NCBI GenBank assembly: GCA_015231865.1
Contig: JADGAU010000010.1
Location: 1 to 38,965 of the forward strand
Length of the DNA: 38,965 nt
Origin: Gammaproteobacteria bacterium
Lineage (GTDB): Bacteria; Pseudomonadota; Gammaproteobacteria; GRL18
Reading direction: 5' to 3'
The position numbers were made by a program, and so were the translations under genes. This document shows, one piece after another, positions 1,207-25,254 of the stretch (the stretch's first letter is position 1; the number at the start of each line of letters is the position of its first letter). The notes under the pieces were generated by a model. The model did not search any database and was not told the origin of the DNA. It saw only the letters and a program-made list of their open reading frames with translations.

Positions 1207-2667
1207 TTATAAGCTAACTGTCTTTAACAGGATCTGACGATCACCATGATTGAGTTTAGCCTCCGGCTTTTTAGATAATCGTGAAAATGACCAGCTTTTA
1301 AAATAAGGTGTCGTGCTAAACTTAACCGGTTGTCGATTAGCCGATACAATTAATGCCTGATCAGATTTAATGGTTCTAACTTCATTGGCATTAATTAGGT
1401 TATATTCATTGTATTGGTCGGTTGTATCAAAAATTTCTTTTTGCTGCCGTTCCCTCACTTTACCAATTATTTTCTCAAAAAAATCCGCTGTCTTTGGATC
1501 AGCTCCGGAATAGGTTAAATAAGTATTAAAGCCACCCTGAATGGATTGAGCATACTCAGGCCCATAACGTGCGTCCAGTTGGCTGATACTTTGTAAAATT
1601 ATTGAAATAGACACTTTATAACCCCGTATAGTATTGATGGTTGATACAAAGTTGGGGATAGTAGAGTGACCAAACTCATCATATAGAATATAAACCGGTA
1701 AGGTTTTTCTATCCGGCATTTTTCTCATACAGGCATTAAATACACTGCGGAAAAACATACTGCTTAGAAAACTAAAATATTCTGCATGTTGTGCCGGTGT
1801 AATCAGATAAATAATGGTTTTCTGCTGCCGGATTTCATCGAGTTTAAAATCTGATTTTGAAGTCAGCCTGGAGACATTTTGATTGGATAGGCTTTTTAAT
1901 GAGGTAATGGCATTTAAAACAAAACTTTGAACACCTTCTTTATTACCGGTTAATACGCCTTTCCATTCATTCCAGAGTGTTGCGTCATCTACATTATCTG
2001 GATTAATGGTATAACGACTCATAAAATCATCCAGATTACTGCCATCTTCACCAAAGTTCTGGAAAAGATAATAAAGATTATGGAGGTTATAGTAATCGGG
2101 GTTTTCGTTGCCGGCATTTTTCAGGCATTTAATAAATAAACTGGCAAAACGAACAGCACCCTGAATCCAAAAATCATCTTTGCCACCCTGAGAAGGCAGG
2201 CCACTACGGACTAAAATTTCAGCAATCTGCTCGATTTCAATTTCATCTCTGGCCTCACTAAAGGGATTAAAGAAACTGCTGCGCTCGAGGTTTTCTGGAT
2301 CAATCACAATCACTTGATAACCACATTTTTGCATATGACCGGAGGTATGCTCAAAGACTTCACCTTTAGGATCGTTAACCACGATAGAGCAGTTTCTTCT
2401 CGCTTTATCCAGCACATTGGGAATAATATAACGGGAAGTTTTACCGGCACCTATTCTGGCAGTGACACAGACATTTTGCAGGCTATCGGTTTCAGATAAG
2501 CGTAACTTAGCCCCATCAAGCAGCAGACCATTATTTCTGGCACATAGATAATCAGCAAAAGAACTATCATCTGCAAATGAGGCACCTGATACTGATTTAC
2601 TTAGTTTACGTTTTATTAAATAAGTGGCCCCTTTGGCCATTAAACTGAAGGTATCTTTAAGTACCAT
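1207..2667 (-). CDS. VirD4/TraG-like type IV coupling ATPase
   Basis: 486 residues. A P-loop ATPase of the VirD4/TraG/TraD family, which in conjugation brings the relaxase-DNA complex to the secretion channel. Visible motifs are Walker A ARIGAGKTS (about residues 70-78), the family motif IVVNDPKGEVFE just after it, and Walker B-like YILYDEFGHS (about residue 330). The usual N-terminal transmembrane helices are absent and the protein is shorter than typical VirD4, so it may depend on the small membrane proteins encoded next to it. Its ATG overlaps the relaxase TAA (TAATG). It uses the standard code. Confidence 0.88.
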   Translation of the reverse strand: MVLKDTFSLMAKGATYLIKRKLSKSVSGASFADDSSFADYLCARNNGLLLDGAKLRLSETDSLQNVCVTARIGAGKTSRYIIPNVLDKARRNCSIVVNDPKGEVFEHTSGHMQKCGYQVIVIDPENLERSSFFNPFSEARDEIEIEQIAEILVRSGLPSQGGKDDFWIQGAVRFASLFIKCLKNAGNENPDYYNLHNLYYLFQNFGEDGSNLDDFMSRYTINPDNVDDATLWNEWKGVLTGNKEGVQSFVLNAITSLKSLSNQNVSRLTSKSDFKLDEIRQQKTIIYLITPAQHAEYFSFLSSMFFRSVFNACMRKMPDRKTLPVYILYDEFGHSTIPNFVSTINTIRGYKVSISIILQSISQLDARYGPEYAQSIQGGFNTYLTYSGADPKTADFFEKIIGKVRERQQKEIFDTTDQYNEYNLINANEVRTIKSDQALIVSANRQPVKFSTTPYFKSWSFSRLSKKPEAKLNHGDRQILLKTVSL

Positions 2668-3728
2668 TATTTTCTCTTATGCTCATTACCATAGGATAGT
2701 TTTGACTGCTCTCTTATTTTATTCATTTCTGCTTTTCTGTCTCTGACAATTTGCTCTTCTCGGGATAAATTTTCATACTGTTTTATTTTCTCAGTATCGT
2801 CGACATTGCTTTTTCCCTTAGTTGTATTATCAGACTTTTGTTTGGTTTCAGTTGTATTATCCACTTTTTTATCACGTTGTTTAAAGGTTTCCTTAGTTTT
2901 TGTTTTCTGTTTATTGTGTTCCTGGCTTTCTTTTTCGGTAGTCTTTTTGTTCTTTATCTTATCGGTAATTTTCTGATTAATTTTTTCAAATTCATCGATA
3001 AAGCCCAATGTGCTTAATCGGTGTTTACGACCGGTTGCCCTGTCTTTCAGTCCCGGATTTTTTCCACGGATATAAAAATCCAGACCTGCTTCATCAAATC
3101 CTTTTAATAATGCTTCTGTACTGTCAGATTGATTAAATATTTGTCTCACTTTTTCCCTAACCACTTCTCTTTGTGGTGTTTTGCCGGTACGGCGTTTCAA
3201 TTCTGCACCTTTGTTGGATAGTTTCTCAGATGACTTTTTATTAATCAGCTCTTTTTGTTCAAGCTCTGGGTATTGCTCCAATACATTTTTTTCCAGTGAT
3301 TTTTTAATTACATCAAATTTAGATTTAGATAAACGATGTCGCTTTGTGGAGGAGACTTCATTAGAACTGATAATGACATGAAAATGGATATTATTATCAT
3401 GATCATCATGAAGGGCTGCAAATGCCAGATTATTTTGTGCTCTATCCTGAATATAATGATGTACAATTTGTCTGAGTTTTTCTTTTTGCTCATCCAGTTT
3501 GATTTGTTCGCTGCGGGTAATGGAGATGACTTCATGATACATATAATTACCGCCAGCACGTCTTCTTAAATATCGGGCGTTTTGAATAAATTCATTTTTT
3601 ACATCTTCTGCATCACGAGAGTATAAATTATGGTAGATACTAAAACGGCTATCGGCACGGCCAGAATCCATATAATCAATCAGCTGATTAAAAGAAGGCT
3701 CTTTGCGTGACATGGATTTGATAATCAT
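2667..3728 (-). CDS. MOBP/VirD2-type relaxase
   Basis: 353 residues. The N-terminal half is a relaxase domain that would nick oriT and attach covalently to the DNA 5' end. A candidate catalytic tyrosine lies near the start (IDYMDSG, Y19). The metal-binding histidine motif is HDDHDNNIHFH (residues 107-117), as in the MOBP and VirD2 group. The C-terminal third is a lysine, glutamate, glutamine and threonine-rich charged tail. Its ATG overlaps the MobC-like stop (ATGA), and the coupling protein follows in the order typical of mobilisation modules. It uses the standard code. Confidence 0.88.
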   Translation of the reverse strand: MIIKSMSRKEPSFNQLIDYMDSGRADSRFSIYHNLYSRDAEDVKNEFIQNARYLRRRAGGNYMYHEVISITRSEQIKLDEQKEKLRQIVHHYIQDRAQNNLAFAALHDDHDNNIHFHVIISSNEVSSTKRHRLSKSKFDVIKKSLEKNVLEQYPELEQKELINKKSSEKLSNKGAELKRRTGKTPQREVVREKVRQIFNQSDSTEALLKGFDEAGLDFYIRGKNPGLKDRATGRKHRLSTLGFIDEFEKINQKITDKIKNKKTTEKESQEHNKQKTKTKETFKQRDKKVDNTTETKQKSDNTTKGKSNVDDTEKIKQYENLSREEQIVRDRKAEMNKIREQSKLSYGNEHKRK

Positions 3729-4105
3729 GGTTTCATTTTCTCTTGAACAAAATCCTGGACAGTCTCTTCGAGTTGTTTGATTTGATTAAGCAATCCATTT
3801 TCATCAGCCAATGCACGAATAGTATGAGAATAATGGGCTGCCTGATTGACATTATTGGCAATATTTCTAATCAGGAATTTTAGTTCCTGTAATTCTTTTT
3901 TCAGATCTTTGGGAACTGCTAAATTGCCACTTAGGCCAGCAAAAGCAAAATCTTTAATCAAGGTGGTGACTTTGGTTTTTTCTTTATTTGCCAGGTGAGA
4001 AAATGCTTTGTATTCATCATTGGAAACAGAAATGCTAATACGTCGATGCGATTTTGCATACTGTTTGCGATAGTTTTTCTGGTAATCTGATTGGGTCTCA
4101 TCCAT
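3725..4105 (-). CDS. MobC-like relaxosome accessory protein
   Basis: Small basic protein upstream of the relaxase. The segment RRISISVSNDEYKAFSHLA resembles a ribbon-helix-helix DNA-binding domain. The central ELKFLIRNIANNVNQ stretch is typical of MobC-family relaxosome proteins that bind oriT and help strand separation. The frame is open upstream to 4222. I chose the third of three consecutive ATGs (4105, giving MDETQSDYQK) because CAGGAG lies about 7 bases before it; 4108 and 4111 are alternatives. It ends in TGA, overlapping the relaxase start, so TGA is a stop in this module. The candidate oriT lies directly upstream. Confidence 0.8.
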   Translation of the reverse strand: MDETQSDYQKNYRKQYAKSHRRISISVSNDEYKAFSHLANKEKTKVTTLIKDFAFAGLSGNLAVPKDLKKELQELKFLIRNIANNVNQAAHYSHTIRALADENGLLNQIKQLEETVQDFVQEKMKP

Positions 4106-4157
4106 CATCATTCTCCTGAAAAAGTTGGTTGAATACGGTATAATGGTTTCGGGTTCA

Positions 4158-4420
4158 AAGGGCTGGCCCTTGCAAGATGCTGCCATATTCGTTACGAATA
4201 TGCAATCTTGCTCACACTGCACAGAGCGTTGTCAATTCTAGAATGCTTAGCAGTTTAATCAAGCGTGGTTATTGTGTCGGGCAATAATTGCCCGGGCACT
4301 TGCAGCACAAAAGTGCTGCCATCTTCATTGCTTGCTTTGAAGATGAAATAAAAGCCGGTTGAAAACCGGCAACGATAAATGTCGAATCAATAACACAGGA
4401 TAAGTGTCAATACGAAATCA
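4158..4420 (-). other. candidate oriT: six hairpins and a P-type nic-like site
   Basis: This intergenic stretch upstream of the MobC-like gene contains six hairpins: 4158-4171 (AAGGGC/GCCCTT), 4172-4211 (GCAAGAT/ATCTTGC around CATATTCG/CGAATATG), 4278-4294 (CGGGCAAT/ATTGCCCG), 4302-4319 (GCAGCAC/GTGCTGC), 4320-4345 (CATCTTCA/TGAAGATG) and 4354-4370 (GCCGGTT/AACCGGC). On the minus strand CTTATCCTG/TGT (4404-4393) fits the IncP-type nic consensus YATCCTG/Y and is framed by ACAC/GTGT. The place next to mobC and relaxase genes supports an origin of transfer. The exact borders are a guess. Confidence 0.55.
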
Positions 4421-4446: not shown

Positions 4447-4470
4447 AAAACTTACCCGAAGGTAAGTTTT
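4447..4470 (-). terminator. rho-independent terminator of the 97-aa gene
   Basis: Perfect 10-bp stem AAAACTTACC/GGTAAGTTTT around a 4-base loop (4457-4460). Read on the minus strand it is followed by a T-rich run. It lies about 80 bases after the stop of the gene at 4547-4840 and also separates it from the candidate oriT. Confidence 0.75.
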
Positions 4471-4546
4471 AACAATAAGAATCCAGAGAATAAAGCTGAA
4501 CTATAGTATCGTAAAGATAACTGATATTTTTGCTGTAAACCTCTCA

Positions 4547-4840
4547 TCACCAACCAATATGATATTCAACACTTTTCCATCTTGTATTTACATTCAGATA
4601 AACATTAGGACCACCATAAGTTAGGCAGATTTCAAAATATCCATAGTCATATTCTTCATTCTTATAAAACTGAATTTCAAGTACATCGAAATATTCTGAA
4701 ATTAAAATATCTGATTCATCTTGATCACCACTGAAATTAATATCAATAAATTGTTTGATAAATTCATCAGATTCAAGATTTTCATAAGCTAAAACTTCAG
4801 CTTCATAATTGTCGGCATATTGCCTTAGTTCATTTTTCAT
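4547..4840 (-). CDS. conserved-looking hypothetical acidic protein
   Basis: 97 residues, acidic, no signal peptide or membrane segment. The C-terminal part ICLTYGGPNVYLNVNTRW is reminiscent of small proteins with a YGGPN motif that I associate with plasmids and integrative elements, but I cannot name a function. No Shine-Dalgarno is visible before ATG 4840. It is followed by its own terminator at 4447-4470, so it is a single-gene unit in the accessory region. Confidence 0.6.
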   Translation of the reverse strand: MKNELRQYADNYEAEVLAYENLESDEFIKQFIDINFSGDQDESDILISEYFDVLEIQFYKNEEYDYGYFEICLTYGGPNVYLNVNTRWKSVEYHIGW

Positions 4841-5258: not shown

Positions 5259-5750
5259 TTAAATCATTCCACGTTCTGCCATTGAGACATTCTGGTCACC
5301 ACCAATGACAATATGATCTAATACTCGAATATCCATCAATTTCAATGCCTCGACCAGTCTTTGGGTGATAAGTTCATCAGATTGACTGGGCTCTGGATTG
5401 CCCGATGGATGATTATGAGCAAAGATAACTGCAGCGGTATTAAGTTGTAAAGCTCTTTTGACCACTTCTCTTGGATAAACCGAAGAAGAGTCAATCGTAC
5501 CACGAAACATTTCTTCATATTGAATAATTTTGTGGGTATTATCCAGAAATATCAGGCTAAAGACTTCGTGTTCCAGATGAGATAGTTTCAATTTTAAAAA
5601 ATCGATACTATCTTTTGGCGCACTGAGTACTTTGCCTTTGGCAAAACGACGGTTAAGTAATTGTTTAGCCATACGGACAATTTCATTGACAGAGACTGTA
5701 CCTTCAACAACATATTCTCCTGTATTTTCACTGGCTACAAAACGATTCAT
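5259..5750 (-). CDS. RadC-family JAB/MPN domain protein (short form)
   Basis: 163 residues. RadC family, with the JAMM metalloprotease-like signature HNHPSGNPEPSQSDELI (about residues 115-131) that would bind zinc. The short form lacks the N-terminal helix-hairpin-helix part of chromosomal RadC and is common on plasmids, integrative elements and genomic islands. The biochemical function of this group is not settled. AGGAGG lies 7 bases before ATG 5750. It ends in TAA 5259-5261 and follows the DUF2958 gene on the same strand, probably in one transcript. Confidence 0.9.
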   Translation of the reverse strand: MNRFVASENTGEYVVEGTVSVNEIVRMAKQLLNRRFAKGKVLSAPKDSIDFLKLKLSHLEHEVFSLIFLDNTHKIIQYEEMFRGTIDSSSVYPREVVKRALQLNTAAVIFAHNHPSGNPEPSQSDELITQRLVEALKLMDIRVLDHIVIGGDQNVSMAERGMI

Positions 5751-5775: not shown

Positions 5776-6090
5776 TTATGGTTGAACCAGCTTAGAAAAC
5801 CGCTGTTGTGTGAAATACAAATCTTGTTCTATTCTGGGAACACCCAGATTAGAAAGCTCAATTTCTGACAACTCATCCAAGGAAACATAACCCCATTCAT
5901 CTTCCATTAATCCGGTTACATAGCCAAAAGCGATATGATTAATTGGATTGAATTCTGTCAGATACCATGTAGCACTGCCAAAAGCATCAAATAACTTAGC
6001 AATAACTAAGGGATCAGACGTATTTTCCTGTGAAGATATAGGATAATTTTCAAACAATTGTATAAACTCAGAATTGATTAATCGATTCAT
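5776..6090 (-). CDS. DUF2958 family protein
   Basis: 104 residues. The order of motifs (VIAKLFDAFGSATWYLTEFN, then HIAFGYVTGLMEDEWGYVSL, then LGVPRIEQDLYF) matches DUF2958, a small family frequent on plasmids and conjugative elements with no known function. AAAGGAG lies 8 bases before ATG 6090. The distal arm of a long inverted repeat (6101-6174) ends within this ribosome-binding site, so translation could be influenced by hairpin formation. It uses the standard code and is the last such gene before the TGA-recoded block. Confidence 0.8.
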   Translation of the reverse strand: MNRLINSEFIQLFENYPISSQENTSDPLVIAKLFDAFGSATWYLTEFNPINHIAFGYVTGLMEDEWGYVSLDELSEIELSNLGVPRIEQDLYFTQQRFSKLVQP

Positions 6091-6178: not shown

Positions 6179-7006
6179 TTATGGGGTTAGAAACTTTACT
6201 AATTGGCCATCGGCTTTTAACCGGTTGTCTCAAAATTTATGTATTCATGACGTTTTATGTTTGAATATAAAGTGCTGTTTATACTGCAGCAGTTGTGATT
6301 GTTTCATGAAAAGAATTAGAACGGTGTTAAGGCATTTTTCAAACTCAAAAACAAAGATAATGCTTTGAGGTTTTAAATCCGATCATTTTTTTGTTTTTAT
6401 GCCATAAGTTAGTCATAACGAATATCTTTTGATTTGCTCAAGTGCTCGTTTGGCATTTTTTCCATTGTGCTGTTCAAATAATAAACATCTGACTTGTCAC
6501 TGTGCCTGATAGATTGCAATTAAATCCGGTTCAACCGGTTTTCCCTGAATTATGATCTGTGTCTGAGCAATCATTTTTTCACCAAAGCTTTGTTTATTAA
6601 AATAGATGAATAATGATTGTAGCGGGTAGTTTTTTTCAGCCAGCCACTTTTGAAATGCAATATTAAAATCAATGGTTGCTATTCGATGAAAATAATCACG
6701 CTGGAAAAAAATGGAATTGTGTTTTGGTATTTGAATAGTATTTGGCCTAAGCTTACATTCATTAATCAATAACTTTTTTCATGCTTTACTTAGATAATGA
6801 ATACGGTCTAATCTGCCTTGGCCCGGTACAAGGCCAAAATCGAGACTTTTGACCAGAGGGTAGCGAAAAGTTTTTAATCATCTGATATTACGATTAATGG
6901 AACTGATACTTTGATGGTGAAAAATGAGTTTGAGTTGTTTTGTGGTCAGAAACTTAAAATGAGCCAGTGCTTTTAATATATTTATTTGCTTGTCCGTTAA
7001 TTTCAT
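6179..7006 (-). CDS. replication-relaxation-like protein, TGA-recoded (7 in-frame TGA)
   Basis: Readable only if TGA is sense. From ATG 7004-7006 to TAA 6179-6181 it gives 275 residues with TGA at residues 43, 76, 170, 198, 208, 254 and 259. The N-terminus (MKLTDKQINILKALAHFKFL) is a winged-helix type domain, followed by LVKSLDFGLVPGQGRLDRIH and YLSKA-TGA-KKLL, where family members usually have a glycine. A PDLIAIYQ...ALEQIKRYS region follows. The layout resembles replication-relaxation family proteins of mobile elements. The start overlaps the ATPase end by 10 bases. No Shine-Dalgarno is seen. Family assignment is moderate; the reading frame is strongly supported. Confidence 0.75.
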
Positions 7007-8316
7007 GATGAATGTTTATTAGATAAAGAACGATAGTACTTTCGTAAATTCCTGGCTTTTATCAAATACCAGAGGTTATCATCAATGGCATAATTGTCTT
7101 TGAGTAATAATTTTGGTGCTTTGATTTTAATTGCCTGTTTTCAGTTGGACTTAACATAAAACAGTCAAACTCTTAGATTCATCAAATCCACTAAAGATAC
7201 ACCCATTTCACTTCAAAGATTAAGAAGACTATGTTTTTCATTCTTTCCGGCAATAATTACATTGGATGCATATAATGCTTTTTGAAGCGTATAAGAAATT
7301 TGTTGCCCAGTATATTGATGTGCCAGGATTAAATGTAAACCATATTTTCTTAGTTGAGTCAGCCCTTTTTCAATATCGTCGGTAACAAAGTTTTGAAACT
7401 CATCGATAAAGAGATAAGTTGGCGTTCTAAAAGGTGCTGGAATATTGCTGCGCTGAAAAGCAATAATACGCAGTAATCCAACAATAAAACGACCATAAGA
7501 TTGCACACTATTACTACCGGATTCTCATAGTGATAGTTTAAAAAGGATGATTTTTTTTTGATTAATTAACTTTTTTAAAGGAAGCGTGGTTTTAATTGAA
7601 ATCAGATTTTGAAATACCGGTTCATTAAGTAAGACTTGAAGACGAGTATAAAGTCCGTGTTTGGTTGCTGAATAAAACTTAGAATAAAATTTGGTTTTAA
7701 ATAAAATGGCATGTTGAGGATTGGGGGAGCGTGCTCAAACCTCAACTAAATCATGATTATTGTCATCATCCATAAAGCGTTGTAAATCAGAGAAATCACT
7801 ATTGGGCCTTCTCAGTAAAGTGGCAATACAGGGTGATAATATGGCATCCATTTGATTGGTTGTATTGGCATTTTGTAATAGCACAGAAAAGATACTTTTA
7901 AGCTCCTGTGTCATCAGCGCAATATTTTTCTCACTTCTATCTGTAATTTCAAAAGGATTAATACTGGGACTGTGGTTTATATCCAGACTTGGGTCAATAT
8001 AAACAATGCGATCAGCAATTTTTCTATTTTTGACCGGTTTGAGTTTAGCTATTTCTTCTGCCAGGTCACCATGCGGATCAATAAGAATTAAACTGCTTTT
8101 AGGCTTTTTGTTTAATAGTTCTCTGTAAAAAAGGAGTTTAATCAACTCACTTTTTCAGCTTCCTGAAGATGCACAGATATATCCATGTTTTTTAAATGCA
8201 TATAAAGGGACAAGTCGATTCAATTTATAATAAAAATAGGCAAGATAAAACTTTTGTATGGGCAGGTACAAAAATTTGAAAATATTTAAGATAAATCAAA
8301 ATAATTTGGTCAACAT
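6997..8316 (-). CDS. TraD/VirD4-like DNA-transfer ATPase, TGA-recoded (8 in-frame TGA)
   Basis: 439 residues when TGA is sense, ATG 8314-8316 to TAA 6997-6999. TGA falls at residues 7, 54, 194, 264, 368, 384, 392 and 438. Residue 54 is the invariant Walker A glycine (ASSGS-TGA-KSE). LILIDPHGDLAEEI follows, and Walker B is TYLFIDEFQNF (Asp near 305). Residue 264 (FKLSL-TGA-ESGSN) and residues 384 and 392 (NLRV-TGA-LFYVKSN-TGA-K) lie where related ATPases favour glycine. The N-terminus is aromatic and hydrophobic (about residues 1-35) and may be a membrane anchor. Under the standard code it would be five or more fragments, all broken by TGA and none by TAA, TAG or frameshift. Confidence 0.85.
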
Positions 8317-8384
8317 AATGGTTAAATAAGAGGTAAACTTTTGGTTGTTTTCTAGTGTGCAAGATTGTTGTGATTAGTAAGCGG

Positions 8385-8639
8385 TTAATCAGGCTTTTCT
8401 ACGTTTAAATTCCCAGTTACCTGGCCTTCCAGATCGTCAGGTAATTTACTGTCATAAATTCAGCGGGATAATATACTGGTCATTTTAACAATTGCTTTGA
8501 TTTGCTCGGGTGTTAATTCAACTAAATCATAATAAACCTTTATACGATTGGCGCTATTGGCCTTGTTCTTTTTAGATTCTTCGTTTCAGTGAAAATAAAG
8601 GTCAACCTGAAAGGAAGTCAGGTAAGTTTGTTGTGTCAT
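8385..8639 (-). CDS. 84-aa protein of unknown function, TGA-recoded (2 in-frame TGA)
   Basis: ATG 8637-8639 to TAA 8385-8387, with TGA at residues 18 and 60. It begins MTQQTYLTSFQVDLYFH and contains VYYDLVELTPEQIKAIVKM and KLPDDLEGQVTGNLNVEKPD. It is soluble and mixed-charge, with no recognised family. A consensus-perfect sigma-70 type promoter lies 54 bases upstream (8693-8720), so it heads the unit with the ATPase and replication-relaxation genes. No Shine-Dalgarno. It is too short in the standard code to appear as an ORF. Confidence 0.65.
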
Positions 8640-8692
8640 AAAGAGATGATTAGGAATAAATTGGTTCGCTTTATTTTTAAAGGAACAATTTA

Positions 8693-8720
8693 ATTATACT
8701 GATAAAAGCTAATTTGTCAA
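8693..8720 (-). promoter_or_regulatory. consensus sigma-70 promoter for the recoded operon
   Basis: On the minus strand TTGACA (8715-8720), a 16-bp spacer and TATAAT (8693-8698), both hexamers perfect. It points into the 84-aa gene and then the ATPase and replication-relaxation-like genes. Confidence 0.75.
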
Positions 8721-8811
8721 ATCTTGACTATTTATCAATAAGATACATAATATATTTTGCTCACCTTTGGGCTATTTAAAGCCAAAACAATTTTTTAAAG
8801 ACAAAATAAAA

Positions 8812-8847
8812 GCCTTGTTCACAATTTTTGAACAAGGTTGCTTTTTG
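8812..8847 (-). terminator. probable terminator overlapping the Rep end region
   Basis: CCTTGTTC (8813-8820) and GAACAAGG (8830-8837) form a perfect 8-bp stem. T-rich sequence flanks it on both sides, so it could work in either direction. It lies just after the TAA of the full-length Rep frame (8850-8852). Confidence 0.65.
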
Positions 8848-8849
8848 GC

Positions 8850-10127
8850 TTATTTTAGGTGTTTCTGGTAAATATAGCGTTTAAAACTACAGGAGACCAA
8901 ATGATGGTTAAAATCTATATTTTCTTTTCAACGTTTGAAAACATTACCCAGGATAGAGTTGGCAAATTCATTTTGTAATTCACTGAGTTGTTGCTCTGAT
9001 AATCCATCCAGATAATTATCAACAGCATTATTCATAATTTGATAGGCTTTCTGAGTTTCTTTGTCTTTTTGCTCCTGAAGCAGTTTTTCAGCTACTTCCA
9101 TTTGCTGTTTTTTTTCCTTCTCTTTCTTCTTGATACAAGCAGATGTTAATAATTCATCAATATCCGGTGATTTTTTTAGGACACCATAGAGATAACTTTT
9201 TTCTGATTGTATAGCCTAGCGTTTTTTCTTGTCCATCACATAAAGATAAATCTGCTTAAGGTAATCAGCTCAGAGTTTATTGAGCAATAAACCATATTCA
9301 GGTTCTTTAAATCCGATAGCCAGGTATTTATCCTGTAAATCAGTATTTCATTTTGTTCCAGCACTTAAGATTGGTTTGTCAGGCACTATGGGTAGTTTTT
9401 TTGTTTGTGCTAAATTTTTAATGGGACTCCTCTTAATATCAAAGATAAATCCAGCGATTCTTCTGCCATGTTTATAAGAGCTGCAGGATACTTTGATATC
9501 GGTAACACGATTAATCAATTTAATTGACGGTTCCAGTAGACTGCTTTTTAAATGACCGACCAGTTTATACTGAGATTTTTTGATAGAAAGCAAATCACGC
9601 AGAGCGGATAAAGGTACTTCTCCCGTATTGCCACGATAAAGATAAGAATAAAAGAAAGCATAAAGTTTAAAATGGTTTTCTTTTTTAAAATAGCGGATAT
9701 TTTCAATCTTGGGTGATGAAAATTTTCCAGTAATCCCAATTAAAAAGGGTAGTATCTCATCATCCAGGCGGATATCTACATAAGAATGTCCATCATTTTT
9801 ATAAAACTGGCAGGAATGCACAAGGTTTCTTTTAAGCCAACCGTTTTTCTTTTTAATCTTGATATAAGACCCCATTAAAGCATCGGTTGCCATATCAATC
9901 CTGGCTATGGCATTTTTATCAGACTTTAGGGCTGGGAAAAATTCAATCAATTGCCTGGTAAAAATACGGTAGGTATGAAATTGTTCGTCCTTCTGTCTGA
10001 TCATGGAAATGGCGACAGATAAGACTCGATGGGCGTCAGTTGGCAGATTAAATGTCGCCGAGGTGAATTCGTTGGTCCTGACTAAACTGTTTTTTCAGTC
10101 AATGTTGCTTACTTCTATATGTTCCAT
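8850..10127 (-). CDS. Rep_3-type plasmid replication initiator, TGA-recoded, one in-frame TAG
   Basis: From ATG 10125-10127 the frame runs to TAA 8850-8852 (425 residues) if TGA is sense (residues 11, 260, 286 and 400) and a single TAG at residue 304 (9216-9218) is passed. The N-terminus SLVRTNEFTSATFNLPTDAH and MATDALMGSYIKIKKKNGWL match Rep_3-type initiators with two winged-helix domains. The C-terminal region is charged (KKKEKEKKQQMEVAEKLLQE), ending with LSEQQLSELQNEFANSIL as in many Rep proteins. The TAG may be a nonsense mutation (one base from CAG or AAG), leaving a 303-residue product. Iterons and an operator-like repeat lie just upstream. Confidence 0.8.
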
Positions 10128-10150
10128 AATTTTAAGTTAATGATTAATAG

Positions 10151-10178
10151 CCTCAATATATTGAAATATCACAAAGAT
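10151..10178 (-). promoter_or_regulatory. possible rep promoter
   Basis: On the minus strand TTGCAT, a 16-bp spacer and TATATT precede ATG 10127 by a few tens of bases, overlapping the operator-like inverted repeat (10168-10193). The -35 match is imperfect, so this is a weak call. Confidence 0.4.
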
Positions 10179-10193
10179 GCAAGTTTTTGTGAT
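10168..10193. promoter_or_regulatory. operator-like inverted repeat before rep
   Basis: ATCACAAA (10168-10175) and TTTGTGAT (10186-10193) form a perfect 8-bp inverted repeat with a 10-bp centre. The half-site core TGTGAT also occurs in the middle iteron (AAGTGTGATGG). In iteron plasmids Rep dimers often repress their own gene from such an inverted repeat; that role is inferred here. Confidence 0.55.
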
Positions 10194-10227
10194 AGTATTT
10201 TTTGTGTTCCATTTTTGAGATATCTCT

Positions 10228-10290
10228 CCTGAAAGTTGTAATACTTCACCTGAAAAGTGTGATGGTTGTCCTGAAAAAAATGATAATTAA
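10228..10290. repeat. three 21-bp direct repeats (iterons), candidate plasmid origin
   Basis: CCTGAAA starts at 10228, 10249 and 10270, an exact 21-bp period. The second copy is CCTGAAAAGTGTGATGGTTG; the others diverge in the second half. The A+T-rich stretch that follows and the adjacent Rep_3 gene fit an iteron-type replication origin. Confidence 0.65.
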
Positions 10291-10533
10291 ACTACTTATT
10301 CCCTTTAGTTAAGCCAACAGTTACAGGCTTAAACGAATAGAAACGATTAAATATATAAACTACTGTATGTGGTAAATAATCTTAAATCTTTTCTCTCATT
10401 CCTTATCTTCAACTAAACAGACACCAAAACAGACACCAAACGATAAAAATGGGTAATTTCAGGGTGCAAAAAAGCTGAATTTCAAACAATAAAAAAGCCC
10501 TGTAATCGATTGATATACAAGGCTTTAAGAATA
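10291..10533. other. non-coding stretch between iterons and tRNA-Asn
   Basis: No gene is supported. It holds a 12-bp tandem repeat (CAGACACCAAAA, CAGACACCAAAC; 10418-10441) and the tRNA terminator stem (about 10492-10528). This is where an element joined at the tRNA 3' end would have its att region, but no integrase gene and no second copy of the tRNA end were found in the window. Confidence 0.5.
10490..10530 (-). terminator. terminator after tRNA-Asn
   Basis: On the minus strand AAAGCCTTGTA and TACAGGGCTTTTTT form a stem with a T run, immediately 3' of the tRNA gene. Confidence 0.65.
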
Positions 10534-10608
10534 TGGCTCCCCCAATATGATTCGAACATATGACCAAGTGATTAACAGTCACCTACTCTACCGCTGAGCT
10601 ATGGGGGA
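10534..10608 (-). tRNA. tRNA-Asn (anticodon GTT)
   Basis: Cloverleaf on the minus strand with acceptor arm TCCCCCA/TGGGGGA, D-arm GCTCAGCGGTAGAG, anticodon loop CTGTTAATC (GTT), T-loop GTTCGAATC and an encoded CCA end (10534-10536). A good promoter lies upstream. tRNA 3' ends are common integration sites, and the mobile region begins directly downstream. Confidence 0.95.
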
Positions 10609-10643
10609 ATAACTAATCCAGCAATGCTGTAAAAGTTGTGCGT

Positions 10644-10672
10644 ATTCTATTGAGAATTATTATTTAGGTCAA
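10644..10672 (-). promoter_or_regulatory. sigma-70 promoter of tRNA-Asn
   Basis: On the minus strand TTGACC (10667-10672), a 17-bp spacer and TAGAAT (10644-10649), about 35 bases before the tRNA 5' end. Confidence 0.7.
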
Positions 10673-10688
10673 GTGATTTTTAAATATT

Positions 10689-11267
10689 CTAGCTAGTTTT
10701 TTCATATGGTAAGCACTTATTGATTGAAGTTGTACTTAATTCATCATTTGTTCTTATCCTTCCTGTTCTTGAGATAATAACTGCTTTGCTTTGTTCTGCA
10801 TGATATTCGTGACAAAATAAGAAAGTGCCATTGGTATGACTAAAACCTCTGGCGTAAAATAAGACATACTCATCTGAACCAGAAAAACTTTTATAGATAA
10901 TTTTATTTGCGCCTTTTAATCTGTGTTGTTTAAAAATAAGTTTTTCATCACTATCAAATTGTTTGTTTTGATTTTTATCTGCAAAAACCAGCCAACCATC
11001 AGACCACTCCACATCGGCTTCACATTGTTTTAAATTCTTACTTTTACACATGATCAGTGTTTGGTTGTTGATAATTGCTCTTGAACGAGCTAATTGTAAC
11101 TGGCTAAATAACACGGTAAGACTGCCATTATGTCTAACGGTTGATAAGGTGTTTGCCATGGAAGGAATTGCAATCGATGTGATGATATAAAAAATGCTTA
11201 AGGCGATTAATAATTCAATTAATGTGAAACCACTAATTGATTGATTTGAAATTGATTGTTTTAACAT
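10689..11267 (-). CDS. GspH/FimT-type pseudopilin
   Basis: 192 residues. A type IV pilin-like N-terminus with GFTLIELLIALSIFYIITSI (from about residue 13): cleavage after Gly, then Phe with Glu at +5, a single hydrophobic helix for assembly into a pseudopilus. The C-terminal part fits GspH/FimT minor pseudopilins (DGWLVFADKNQNKQFDSDE, GRIRTNDE). The start is supported by GGGAGAG before ATG 11267. No other pilus genes are adjacent, which is usual for orphan FimT-like genes. Confidence 0.85.
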   Translation of the reverse strand: MLKQSISNQSISGFTLIELLIALSIFYIITSIAIPSMANTLSTVRHNGSLTVLFSQLQLARSRAIINNQTLIMCKSKNLKQCEADVEWSDGWLVFADKNQNKQFDSDEKLIFKQHRLKGANKIIYKSFSGSDEYVLFYARGFSHTNGTFLFCHEYHAEQSKAVIISRTGRIRTNDELSTTSINKCLPYEKTS

Positions 11268-11437
11268 TGATACTCTCCCTAAATCTAATTTAGAGAAAGT
11301 ATAAAGGTATGGGCTATAATTCTATGTCAGTAGCAGATTGTGTTTGTGTCAGATAAATCTGATTTTGACATAAAAGAAACAACAATATCGTCTATTTTAT
11401 GTCTTTGTTGGAAGAATGCTTATCAACGAATAGTCGT

Positions 11438-12622
11438 TTATGAAAATAACTTTTCCAGACGTGAAATTGCTTCCTTCAAGTTTTCCATACTGGTAGCAAA
11501 CGATAAACGAATATTACCGGGTGCACCAAAAGCTGTTCCTGGGACTAAGGCGACTTCTGCTTTTTCCAGAATATAGTTTGTTAATTCAACATCATCATTA
11601 ACATCAACGATACGATTGATTAATTCTTTAACATTAAAAAAACAATAAAAAGCACCTTGAGATTGTAAAGCTTTTATACCATCAATCTGGTTTAAGGCAT
11701 TGACAATGTAATCGTGTCTTTCTTTAAATGCGGTTAACATCTCAGTGATACAGCCCTGATCCCCATTTAATGCTTGTAGTGCAGCAGCTTGCGAAACAGA
11801 TGAAGGGTTTGAAGTACTTTGTGACTGAATTTTTGTCATGGCCTTGATAACTTCGATAGGCCCCGCACAATAACCAATACGCCATCCGGTCATAGCATAA
11901 GCTTTACTGACACCATTCATGGTAATCACTCTGTTTTTTAAATCCGGACAAACCTGGGCAATAGTAGAATAGGCTTCTTCAGACCAGATAATATGTTCAT
12001 ACATATCATCACTGGCAATAATGACATTTGGATAATCTCTTAACACTGCTCCTATTTGCTCTAAATCTTCACGACTATAACAAACACCGGTTGGATTCGA
12101 TGGACTATTAATAACCAATAAACGAGTTTTATCTGTGATTGCATCCTGAAGTTGTTGAGCGGTTAACTTGAAACCTTGTTCTATTCCGGCAGAAACAATA
12201 ACAGGCTTGGCATCGGCAAGAATGACCATATCAGGATATGAAACCCAGTAAGGGGCAGGAATAATGACTTCATCACCCGGGTTTAATAATGCCTGACACA
12301 GGTTATAAAAACTTTGCTTCCCGCCACTTGAAACTAGAACTTGCTCAGCGGTATATTCAAGATCATTATCTCGTTTGAATTTATCAACAATTGCCTGTCG
12401 AAGTTGAACGGTACCGGCAACGGCCGTATAGCGTGTTTCACCTTCATTAATTGCCTTAATTGCCGCATTTTTTATATGTTGAGGTGTATCAAAATCCGGC
12501 TCGCCTGCAGCAAGACCAATGATACTTTTACCGGCAGCCTTTAGCTCTTTAGCCTTTGCAGTAATCGCTAATGTGGCGGAAGGTTTAACTGAATTTACAC
12601 GATTAGATAAACTGATGCTCAA
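11438..12622 (-). CDS. class I PLP-dependent aminotransferase (AspC/AatA-like)
   Basis: 394 residues, the normal length for the aspartate aminotransferase Ib subgroup. Seen are the N-terminal substrate-domain sequence GLAAGEPDFDTP, the NSPSNPTG loop, SDDMYEHIIW, and the PLP lysine in GVSKAYAMTGWRIGYCAGP (about residue 239), with R of WRIGY binding substrate or phosphate. Likely transfers amino groups between aspartate or related amino acids and 2-oxoglutarate; exact specificity cannot be read. It starts at TTG 12620-12622 with TGGAG eight bases upstream. It is divergent from uvrB. Confidence 0.92.
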   Translation of the reverse strand: MSISLSNRVNSVKPSATLAITAKAKELKAAGKSIIGLAAGEPDFDTPQHIKNAAIKAINEGETRYTAVAGTVQLRQAIVDKFKRDNDLEYTAEQVLVSSGGKQSFYNLCQALLNPGDEVIIPAPYWVSYPDMVILADAKPVIVSAGIEQGFKLTAQQLQDAITDKTRLLVINSPSNPTGVCYSREDLEQIGAVLRDYPNVIIASDDMYEHIIWSEEAYSTIAQVCPDLKNRVITMNGVSKAYAMTGWRIGYCAGPIEVIKAMTKIQSQSTSNPSSVSQAAALQALNGDQGCITEMLTAFKERHDYIVNALNQIDGIKALQSQGAFYCFFNVKELINRIVDVNDDVELTNYILEKAEVALVPGTAFGAPGNIRLSFATSMENLKEAISRLEKLFS

Positions 12623-12698
12623 GTTGATTCTCCAGTCAATGTCAGAACTGTTATAATAATATCATATAATACTAATAAACCACCAAGACTTTATAACA

Positions 12699-14723
12699 AT
12701 GTTTAAAAGAAATATGAAAGATATTTATCAATTAGAATCAAAATTTGAACCCGGCGGTGATCAACCTAAAGCTATCAATGATTTAGTCGAGGGTATCAAT
12801 AACGGCGAATTGGGTATGACGCTACTAGGTGTAACAGGTTCTGGCAAAACCTTTACTATGGCTAATGTTATTTCTCAGTTACAACGTCCGGCGTTAATTC
12901 TGGCTCACAATAAAACCCTGGCAGCGCAATTATATGGAGAAATGAGAGAGTTTTTTCCACATAATTCAGTGGAGTATTTTGTTTCCTACTATGATTATTA
13001 TCAGCCAGAAGCCTATGTACCAACATCTGATACTTTTATTGAAAAAGATGCTTCCATTAATGATCATATCGAACAAATGCGCTTATCAGCAACTAAAGCA
13101 CTTCTTGAACGATCTGACACTATCATTGTTGCTTCGGTTTCCTGTATTTATGGTTTAGGTGATCCTGAGTCTTATATGCAAATGCTATTACATGTATCTC
13201 GTGGCGAAACGATTGATCAGCGCAGCATCTTAAGACGTTTAGCAGAATTACAATACACTCGCAATGATGTCGTTTTTCAGCGAGCAACTTATCGGGTTCG
13301 GGGTGATGTCATTGATGTTTACCCAGCCGATTCGGATAGTGAAGCGGTTCGAATTGAATTATTTGATGATGAAGTAGAAGCGCTATACTACTTTGATCCG
13401 TTAACAGGTGAAATTATAAAAGAAGTTGCCCGGTTAACGATTTACCCCAAAACTCACTATGTTACTCCTCGGGAAAAAATTCTAATCGCTATTGAAGATA
13501 TTAAGGAAGAATTAAAAGAGCGCCTGGAATATTTACGTGCGGAGAATAAATTGGTTGAAGCTCAAAGGCTTGAGCAAAGAACACAACTAGATTTAGAAAT
13601 GCTCAATGAGCTTGGCTATTGCTCTGGTATTGAAAATTACTCTCGCTACCTTTCTGGCAGAAATCCCGGTGAACCGCCACCAACTTTTCTTGATTATTTA
13701 CCCGATGATGCCCTTATCTTTATTGATGAAAGCCATGTTACGATTCCTCAAATAGGCGCGATGTATAAAGGCGATCGTTCCCGTAAAGAAAACCTGGTTA
13801 ACTATGGTTTCCGTTTACCTTCTGCTCTGGATAATCGTCCTTTACGCTTTGATGAATACGAAAAGCTAGTCTCTCAATCCATTTATATCTCTGCTACGCC
13901 AGCCAATTACGAAAAAGAGCACTCCGGTTTTATTACTGAGCAGGTTGTACGCCCTACCGGTTTAATCGATCCCGAAGTATTTATACATCCGGCGACTAAC
14001 CAGGTGGATGATTTATTATCGGAAATCAATCAAACCACTAAAAATAATGAACGAGTTTTAGTGACCACATTAACAAAACGCATGGCTGAGGATTTAACCG
14101 ATTACTTAACCGATCATGATGTACGCTGTCGTTATTTACATTCTGACATTGATACGGTAGAACGAATTGAAATTATCCGGGATTTACGCTTAGGTGAGTT
14201 TGACGTGCTCATCGGTATTAACTTATTAAGAGAAGGTTTAGATATACCTGAAGTATCCTTAGTGACTATATTGGATGCTGATAAAGAGGGCTTTTTACGT
14301 TCCGATCGTTCTTTAATTCAGACCATGGGCCGTGCTGCCAGAAATGCCAATGGACGTGTGATTTTATATGCCGATAGAATTACCGGTTCTATGCAACGCG
14401 CCATGGATGAAACCCAAAGACGTCGTGAAAAGCAGATGGCATTTAATGAAGAGCATGGAATTACACCACAGGGCATTCGTAAATCAGTACAGGATATTAT
14501 GGATAGCGCCATTCCCGGTACCGGTAAAAGCAAAAAGATTAAACATAAAAAAGTGGCTGAGAATCAGGCTGAATATGCGGTTATGTCGCCTGAGCAATTA
14601 CAAAAGAAAATTAAAGCTCTGGAAAAAACCATGTTTGATCATGCGCAAAATATGGAGTTTGAAATGGCGGCTAAAATTCGTGATGAAGTTAAGGCATTAC
14701 GTGACAACTTTCTGCTCGTGTAA
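12699..14723 (+). CDS. uvrB: UvrB, excinuclease ABC subunit B
   Basis: 674 residues, full length. Damage-verification helicase of nucleotide excision repair, loaded by UvrA and cleaved at by UvrC. Seen are Walker A GVTGSGKT (about residue 45-52), the beta-hairpin [12 protein letters not shown], the DESH-like box FIDESHVT, the helicase motifs [20 protein letters not shown], and the C-terminal UVR motif ([20 protein letters not shown]) that binds UvrC. The family start may be the second ATG (12714, [11 protein letters not shown]). Divergent from the aminotransferase with about 75 bases between them. Confidence 0.98.
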
Positions 14724-24399: not shown

Positions 24400-25254
24400 A
24401 TGAATCGTGTAAATAAAATGTCTAAAATAAAATACAAACAATTACTGCTAGCATTACTTTTAGTAAGTAGCAATTTATTTAGTACAAATGTATCTGCTGA
24501 GATCCTTGTACTGGTACATGGTTTTGATAGCAATAGTCAAACATGGCTAAAACATGGAATTGCTCAGCAATTAGAACTTAATGGCTGGCAAAATGCCGGG
24601 CTTTTAACTCTCATAAGACCTGGTGGCGATCACTTTAATAAACCGGTTAAATTAAATAAGGATTTTTTTGTCCTTGTTGATTTACCCTATAAAGCACCTA
24701 TTCAAATTCAGGCGAATTATTTAGATAATTATCTAAATTACCTGGCAAAAGAATCACCGCAACAAGCAATTACTTTAATTGCTCATTCTGCCGGTGGAAT
24801 TGTAGCTAGATTAACACTTTTAAATAATCCAAATTTACCAATTTGGCGTTTGATAACTATTGCAACACCCCATATGGGTTCTGCTATGGCAGAAGTTGGT
24901 GAAATTATTGCAAAGTCACCCATGACACTGGTTACTCCAATTATTGGAGCAGACAGTATTAATCATGCAGGAAAGTTGCTTTCTCAATTAAAACGTGAAG
25001 ATCCCGGATCTTTTTTGTTCTGGTTGAACAACCTTCAACATCCGGATATTGAATATATTTCAATTGTTCGCCTAGATAGTTCGTGGTTTGATGGAGATTT
25101 TTTTGTTTCCCCATATAGTCAGAATATGAACTTTGTTAGAGGGATCCGTCAATCTCAAATCATATTAACACCAGGAAAGCACTGGTTAAATTTTCGAGAT
25201 GGACTATTATTATTACAAATACTCAGCAAAGGCAATCAAGCAAGTAGCAAATAA
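24400..25254 (+). CDS. alpha/beta-hydrolase, PGAP1/lipase-like
   Basis: 284 residues. Signal peptide (LLLALLLVSSNLFSTNVSA) followed directly by the strand EILVLVHGFDSNSQTWLKHG (oxyanion-hole HG). The nucleophile elbow is LIAHSAGGIVARL (AHSAGG). A later histidine (GKHWLNFRDGL) could complete the triad. Probably an envelope-located esterase or lipase-like protein. A second ATG at 24418 would shorten the N-terminus by six residues. Substrate unknown. Confidence 0.75.
   Translation: MNRVNKMSKIKYKQLLLALLLVSSNLFSTNVSAEILVLVHGFDSNSQTWLKHGIAQQLELNGWQNAGLLTLIRPGGDHFNKPVKLNKDFFVLVDLPYKAPIQIQANYLDNYLNYLAKESPQQAITLIAHSAGGIVARLTLLNNPNLPIWRLITIATPHMGSAMAEVGEIIAKSPMTLVTPIIGADSINHAGKLLSQLKREDPGSFLFWLNNLQHPDIEYISIVRLDSSWFDGDFFVSPYSQNMNFVRGIRQSQIILTPGKHWLNFRDGLLLLQILSKGNQASSK

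Follow-up and report, generated by a model that had tools for sequence, protein, structure and literature searches.

Conserved genes that use TGA as a glycine codon within integrative mobilizable elements of standard-code gammaproteobacteria

The stretch of DNA analyzed here (the window) is a contig of 38,965 nucleotides (JADGAU010000010.1 of assembly GCA_015231865.1) assigned to a gammaproteobacterium of the GRL18 lineage. Its minus strand carries four genes that form long open frames when TGA is read as a sense codon. These specify a Rep3 plasmid replication initiator (9216..10127, three in-frame TGA; PF01051 6.7e-19, PF21205 3.4e-12), an 84-aa protein that matches no Pfam family (8385..8639, two TGA), a 439-aa coupling-type ATPase resembling VirD4/TrwB (6997..8316, eight TGA; PF01935 6.4e-10, PF02534 1.7e-7), and a 275-aa Replic_Relax protein (6179..7006, seven TGA), whose match to PF13814 (1.9e-5) lies at the cut-off for that family. 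Together with one or two accessory genes, they constitute a plasmid-type module of a gammaproteobacterial integrative mobilizable element. An earlier note on this DNA, made from the sequence alone, had described the four frames and counted 21 in-frame TGA, no in-frame TAA, a single TAG, and no frameshift. All four frames lie where the note placed them, and a recount agrees with each of these counts, giving 7 + 8 + 2 + 3 TGA and one more where the Rep frame continues past its TAG. The relatives, whose Rep proteins are 420-440 aa long, do not have the TAG, and the C-terminal part of these proteins can be aligned to that continuation (8850..9215, minus strand). The note had stopped at four genes, however, and missed a fifth recoded gene of about 123 aa (4469..4840, minus strand), in which a TGA-TGA doublet falls inside a conserved region. 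Under translation table 11 only the first 97 aa of this gene (4547-4840) are read before the doublet cuts the frame.

The full-length products obtained with TGA as sense match the Pfam domains Rep3_N/C, DUF87, T4SS-DNA_transf, and Replic_Relax, and both domains of a Rep3 plasmid initiator, WH1 and WH2, are present. One TGA of the window ATPase falls inside the Walker A motif, GSGKS. The structure model of the recoded ATPase, itself of low confidence (pLDDT 69), resembles TrwB. The model of the Replic_Relax protein (pLDDT 81) is similar to winged-helix proteins and, weakly, to restriction-type nucleases; none of its matches falls below E 0.001. The gene for the 84-aa protein lies directly upstream of the ATPase gene and is kept in every element in which that part is sequenced.

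When the ATPase was used as a query against 84,980 species genomes, six close homologues (58-72% identity) were found. These lie in a marine proteobacterial metagenome-assembled genome (MAG; L034), two MAG contigs nearly identical to each other (L035 and L036), MAG NORP270 (L037), and two Colwellia, one an isolate (strain I2R04, L038) and one a MAG (L039). All six contain in-frame TGA and no in-frame TAA or TAG. A search of 399 Colwellia-family genomes added two more copies: G253, in a 4.77-Mb chromosome contig, and G400, with 17 TGA in its open frame. The recoded module is present in eight of the eight close relatives found, which comprise Colwellia, two further genomes of the family, and marine MAGs. 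In about 75 relatives at a greater distance (L040-L113, spread over many phyla, plus two viral contigs), the matched part is free of in-frame stops. In a phylogenetic tree the recoded ATPases form one clade (support 98), which is joined by two standard-coded homologues on long branches, one from Arcobacter and one from the 22-kb Microcystis element Mwe-JY31. Scans of IMG/VR with the ATPase, the Replic_Relax protein, and a 582-aa protein described below found no recoded relative, nor did searches of phage records with the ATPase and the 582-aa protein. As a separate observation, L036 (JABIFG010000162.1) is labeled Candidatus Neomarinimicrobiota and is 98% identical over the ATPase to L035, which is labeled Gammaproteobacteria; L036 is probably wrongly binned.

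Comparison with these homologues shows that TGA encodes glycine in the module. At the columns where the recoded ATPases have TGA, about 106 standard-coded homologues have glycine in 49-55% of cases and tryptophan in none. In the same homologues glycine occupies 32-36% of the positions at GGN columns and 2-5% of those at serine or arginine columns. For the Replic_Relax protein, glycine stands at 24% at TGA columns and likewise at 24% at GGN columns. Thus, TGA does not fall at random, as the note had allowed it might, but at glycine columns. Among the recoded copies themselves, TGA in one copy corresponds to glycine in others far above the level of neighboring columns; this comparison merged two small recoded families (the window type and the G253/G400 type), which can only dilute the glycine signal. 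The glycines of Walker A are written as TGA in some copies and GGN in others. Overall, TGA makes up 37% of the glycine codons of the recoded genes and is spread along them, and in one ATPase it accounts for 16 of the 20. The note had also expected table 25 translations to align better. They do yield full-length products with recognizable domains, but in BLAST glycine barely improves on a masked TGA: against the Arcobacter protein the ATPase scores 227 bits with glycine and 218 with TGA masked as X, and the gain is about 10 bits for the ATPase and almost nil for Replic_Relax. Because this gain is small, the case for glycine rests on the columns, together with selection and the pattern across the family. 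Other ways of reading UGA were also considered. Tryptophan is rejected by its absence from the ATPase TGA columns, and selenoprotein genes are rejected since there are many UGA per gene, at glycine columns, rather than a single UGA at a Cys/Sec position. A leaky UGA context is likewise not indicated, as C after UGA is not in excess relative to GGN.

Across 36 homologous genes there are 173 in-frame TGA and one in-frame TAG, that of the window Rep. Read in their two other forward frames, these genes contain TGA, TAA, and TAG at 690:678:316. Between the two Colwellia elements, which differ at synonymous sites by a dS of 0.24-0.62, the ratio of nonsynonymous to synonymous substitution (dN/dS), calculated with TGA as glycine, is 0.107 for the ATPase, 0.087 for Replic_Relax, 0.139 for Rep, 0.031 for the 84-aa protein, and 0.179 for the small protein. 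The standard-coded genes of these elements fall in the same range (MobA 0.142, TraG 0.063, MobC 0.082). These values of 0.03-0.18 show that the recoded genes are functional and under purifying selection, and the selection, the excess of TGA over TAG, and the balanced stops of the other frames together exclude chance as the source of the in-frame TGA. The same results bear on the idea that the genes are relics, that is, a plasmid from a bacterium with genetic code 25 that decays unread. The TAG in the window Rep is what one would expect of decay, but such low dN/dS at this divergence, the single TAG against 173 TGA, the lack of any frameshift seen, and the keeping of the module in eight copies make this account very improbable, and the selection test rejects pseudogenes outright.

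A second codon may carry a similar signature. CGG is scarce in the recoded genes, where it makes up 8 of 400 arginine-box codons compared with 72 of 1090 in the standard genes of the same elements (Fisher p = 0.0002). In two independent places it stands at a column that is tryptophan in most other copies and in Arcobacter: in the ATPase of both Colwellia, and in the Replic_Relax gene of the window (6221-6223, minus strand). Conserved arginine columns of the recoded genes are written with CGA, CGT, CGC, AGA, or AGG and never with CGG, which does encode arginine in the standard genes that the elements carry. The few sites are suggestive of CGG as tryptophan in the module and fall short of proof. 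UGA as glycine together with CGG as tryptophan has been reported for some Gracilibacteria, and Absconditabacteria read CGA, too, as tryptophan (PMC8629427). The reading of CGA as arginine in the module fits the Gracilibacteria and not the Absconditabacteria.

The rest of the element is written in the standard code. In the window, all on the minus strand, it includes a TraG/VirD4 coupling protein (1207..2667; PF02534 1.1e-59) and a MobA/VirD2-type relaxase (2667..3728; PF03432 1.1e-8), both without in-frame TGA, a MobC-like ribbon-helix-helix protein (3725..4222), a RadC-like protein (5259..5750; PF04002 5.5e-46), and a DUF2958 protein (5776..6090; PF11171 1.5e-14). As the note had said, the MobC-like gene ends in a genuine TGA stop (3725-3727), which overlaps the MobA start as ATGA. 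Its other examples of TGA stops, genes for an SDR and an FAD protein seen in the list of open reading frames only, lie outside the element. Over the family, 20 of 72 standard genes of the elements (28%) use TGA as the stop. Recoded and standard genes are interleaved within the element, and each element encodes a pair of coupling-type ATPases, of which TraG is standard-coded and the other recoded. The block is indeed recoded, as the note had described, and forms a conserved part of an integrative element found in several gammaproteobacteria; it is not an isolated foreign island. A TraG 40% identical to that of the window is encoded on a Sulfitobacter plasmid (L289, NZ_CP083562.1) from whose gene table it is absent; the plasmid also has a relaxase and a replication initiation protein, and neither the recoded ATPase nor Replic_Relax has a convincing match there.

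The features of an integrative mobilizable element are found across the family. A tyrosine integrase gene lies after groL in G253, G400, and G099. The exact 19-base sequence at the end of groL in G099, ATGGGCGGCATGATGTAAT (24431-24449), recurs 49 kb downstream (73297), and in G253 a near copy of the groL end lies about 33 kb downstream (about 59292). The attachment (att) site of the integrase in these three genomes is the 3' end of groL, which codes for the Gly-Gly-Met tail. Thus, the elements combine integrase domains with att repeats, exact in G099 and near-exact in G253. The relaxase of the window (PF03432) has homologues in four relatives. The elements also carry MobC, MobA, TraG, an AlpA-type regulator, and cargo. 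In a scan of part of the genes, coupling proteins were the only type IV secretion components noticed among those listed, and no virion genes were seen among the element genes scanned, which covered part of the cargo. In the window the block lies just downstream of a chromosomal tRNA-Asn (GTT) gene (10534..10608, minus strand) that is outside the change of code and, judged by this position, is the likely integration target; no att repeat was found in the window, and the other end of the element lies beyond the start of the contig.

Several features of the elements vary. In G253 and G400 no Rep gene lies beside the recoded module, and both elements have an extra recoded protein (582 and 558 aa, with 14 TGA each) downstream of Replic_Relax that matches nothing in Pfam or PHROG. 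In L034 (26-9090) and L037 (1418-5026), large standard-coded genes adjoin the 84-aa/ATPase genes on the upstream side, in the latter case between Rep and the ATPase; this region looks like a hot spot for cargo. The cargo of G253 includes a HamA protein adjoining a DEAD-box helicase (L149:2528-6070), a Hachiman-like defense.

This arrangement bears directly on whether the recoded genes could have arrived in the data by mis-assembly or contamination with contigs of code-25 bacteria. Several members are indeed MAG contigs, and the label of L036, given its 98% identity to L035, is doubtful. However, in one case the element, with its att-like repeats, sits beside groL within a contig of 4.77 Mb, in another it lies in a 345-kb contig of a Colwellia isolate, and recoded and standard genes alternate. 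Contamination is scarcely credible on these grounds and is rejected, since a complete chromosome contradicts it.

A bacterium that uses code 25 would be expected to contain a tRNA-Gly(UCA) and, lacking release factor 2, to avoid UGA as a stop. Neither was seen here: standard genes of the elements do end in TGA, as described above, and no such tRNA was found in the elements or in one complete host chromosome. ARAGORN, Rfam, and an unfiltered tRNA covariance model detected no tRNA on the elements beyond the chromosomal tRNA-Asn, and thus no suppressor tRNA; the next covariance scores were 11 bits and below, and the search covered the complete G253 element. When introns were allowed, one low-scoring hit appeared in G253 at a relaxed threshold and none in the other elements. 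Genome-wide, UCA tRNA patterns in seven hosts were no more numerous than in the control, and none of the loci checked is such a tRNA, the one exception being the tRNA-Sec of a MAG. In the chromosome assembly of G253, outside which a plasmid is possible, all 92 tRNA genes found serve the twenty amino acids, with tRNA-Gly of the GCC and TCC types only and no UCA tRNA.

These searches weigh on two explanations in which UGA is read as glycine within the gammaproteobacterium. The host might possess a decoder that escapes present tools, either a highly unusual tRNA encoded by the element or a factor, likewise from the element, through which a tRNA-Gly of the host reads UGA. Recoding would then be a lock, holding the genes for replication and transfer silent until that decoder appears. 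In favor of this account, the recoded genes are under the same selection as the standard ones and their composition follows the host, and recoded phages of standard-code hosts use such locks (PMC10746230). A lock would also favor the heavy use of TGA (37% of the glycine codons overall, and 16 out of 20 for one ATPase). However, the unfiltered covariance model found no tRNA over a complete element, the complete chromosome has no UCA tRNA, no conserved translation factor was seen among the element genes, and CGG at tryptophan columns is left unexplained, so that we regard a resident decoder as rather unlikely, though the strongest of the rival accounts. The decoder might instead be imported, when a phage or plasmid that carries a tRNA-Gly(UCA) enters the same gammaproteobacterium and unlocks the module, which would then replicate or leave in the manner of a satellite. 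Phage RSA-ATP1 does have a tRNA-Gly(TCA), and its predicted host is an Absconditicoccaceae epibiont of gammaproteobacteria (PMC13059738), but infection of gammaproteobacteria by this phage is not known. The literature searched yielded no phage of this kind with a standard-code host, and the CGG codons again find no explanation; an imported decoder thus seems improbable.

The remaining account places the decoder in a different cell. Reading UGA as glycine is known only from Gracilibacteria/Absconditabacteria (PMC8629427), and Absconditicoccaceae, which use code 25, live as epibionts on Gammaproteobacteria (PMC13059738, PMC8080830). A Gracilibacterium has been seen to rise in abundance together with Colwellia and carries a region possibly derived from a Colwellia relative (PMC6851277). 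Colwellia is the genus of two of the elements. Under this account the standard-coded integrase, MobA/MobC, and TraG would integrate and mobilize the element in the gammaproteobacterium, in whose chromosome the recoded module would be silent, UGA ending translation there. The module would be read after the element has passed, as we infer it does, into a bacterium whose code is of the Gracilibacteria type (UGA glycine, CGG tryptophan, CGA arginine); there Rep3 would drive the element's replication as a plasmid, with the recoded ATPase and Replic_Relax serving for maintenance or transfer. We give an even chance to the view that the element is integrative, mobilizable, and bilingual, with a replication/transfer module expressed only inside a code-25 partner cell. 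Of the accounts considered, this one accommodates the largest share of the observations. The fuller proposal, that it alternates between gammaproteobacteria and code-25 epibionts (UGA glycine, CGG tryptophan) with one set of mobilization genes for each code, each silent in the other cell, is put forward a little more tentatively.

Several observations weigh against a bilingual element. No code-25 genome with a copy was seen: the 380 Patescibacteria genomes examined apparently contain no species with this code. In 375 of them there were only distant VirD4 relatives, the best 150 listed being without in-frame stops. (By eye, four tRNA-like hits in Patescibacteria resemble tRNA-Glu(UUC).) The recoded ATPases stand far from the VirD4 proteins of Patescibacteria in the tree, and an origin from the common proteins of this type is not supported. 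The evidence for CGG as tryptophan consists of two independent columns; TGG becomes CGG by a single transition, and the columns of three CGG codons in L034 are uninformative. Finally, the G+C of the recoded genes, which ranges from 0.32 to 0.50 across the family, tracks that of the standard genes in the same element; the match therefore implies long residence of the module in gammaproteobacterial hosts.

Conserved, selected genes with UGA as glycine in standard-code chromosomes in which no decoder was found fit no arrangement in the literature searched. If the element does shuttle, it would document gene exchange across a genetic-code barrier between epibiotic bacteria of the candidate phyla radiation (CPR) and their hosts, point to Colwellia and other gammaproteobacteria as candidate hosts of Gracilibacteria, and demonstrate expression limited to one of two cell types by the code alone. 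If instead a decoder is present, there would be an unrecognized way of reading UGA as glycine in culturable, Colwellia-type bacteria. Because standard gene finders fragment the recoded genes, such elements may be common and unseen. A large screen of genetic codes ascribed stop reassignments confined to a limited part of a genome to contamination (PMC8629427), and no report of an integrative element of mixed code was found in the literature searched, a search that largely excluded subscription papers and preprints.

Related modules written entirely in the standard code are known. In Mwe-JY31 and in Arcobacter L040 the ATPase adjoins Replic_Relax, with 33-36% (ATPase) and 31% (Replic_Relax) identity to the window proteins. 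Mwe-JY31 and the Methylomagnum plasmid pRS11DPr5, which has distant versions of the module genes, also have Rep3. Unlike the module described here, all three are in the standard code, including the Rep3, ATPase, and Replic_Relax genes of Mwe-JY31. The record of the latter, as Microcystis phage Mwe-JY31 (L227, PP438423.1), contains genes for Rep3, a ParA-like protein, a coupling-type ATPase, and Replic_Relax at 8566-14655. The proteins scanned include no virion protein, and a plasmid seems likelier than a phage. P4-type integrative mobilizable elements share with the present elements the tyrosine integrase, AlpA-type regulator, relaxase, coupling protein, and cargo genes; the recoded plasmid-type module is the difference. 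With code 25 of Gracilibacteria/Absconditabacteria the module shares UGA at glycine columns and a CGG that is rare and, in two places, at tryptophan columns, but in the present case the code is confined to one module of an element, and the genes and tRNA set of the host chromosomes are standard. Alternatively coded phages (code 15, code 4, suppressor tRNAs) are likewise mobile elements with in-frame stops in some genes and a standard-code host, and those of standard-code hosts carry suppressor tRNAs (PMC10746230). The present element does not appear to be a phage, it has UGA as glycine and not tryptophan, and no suppressor tRNA was found. Closest in proposed lifestyle are phages thought to infect both code-25 CPR and standard bacteria, which avoid in-frame TGA (PMC10746230). 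A life across the code barrier is proposed in both cases; however, in the element each set of genes keeps a code of its own.

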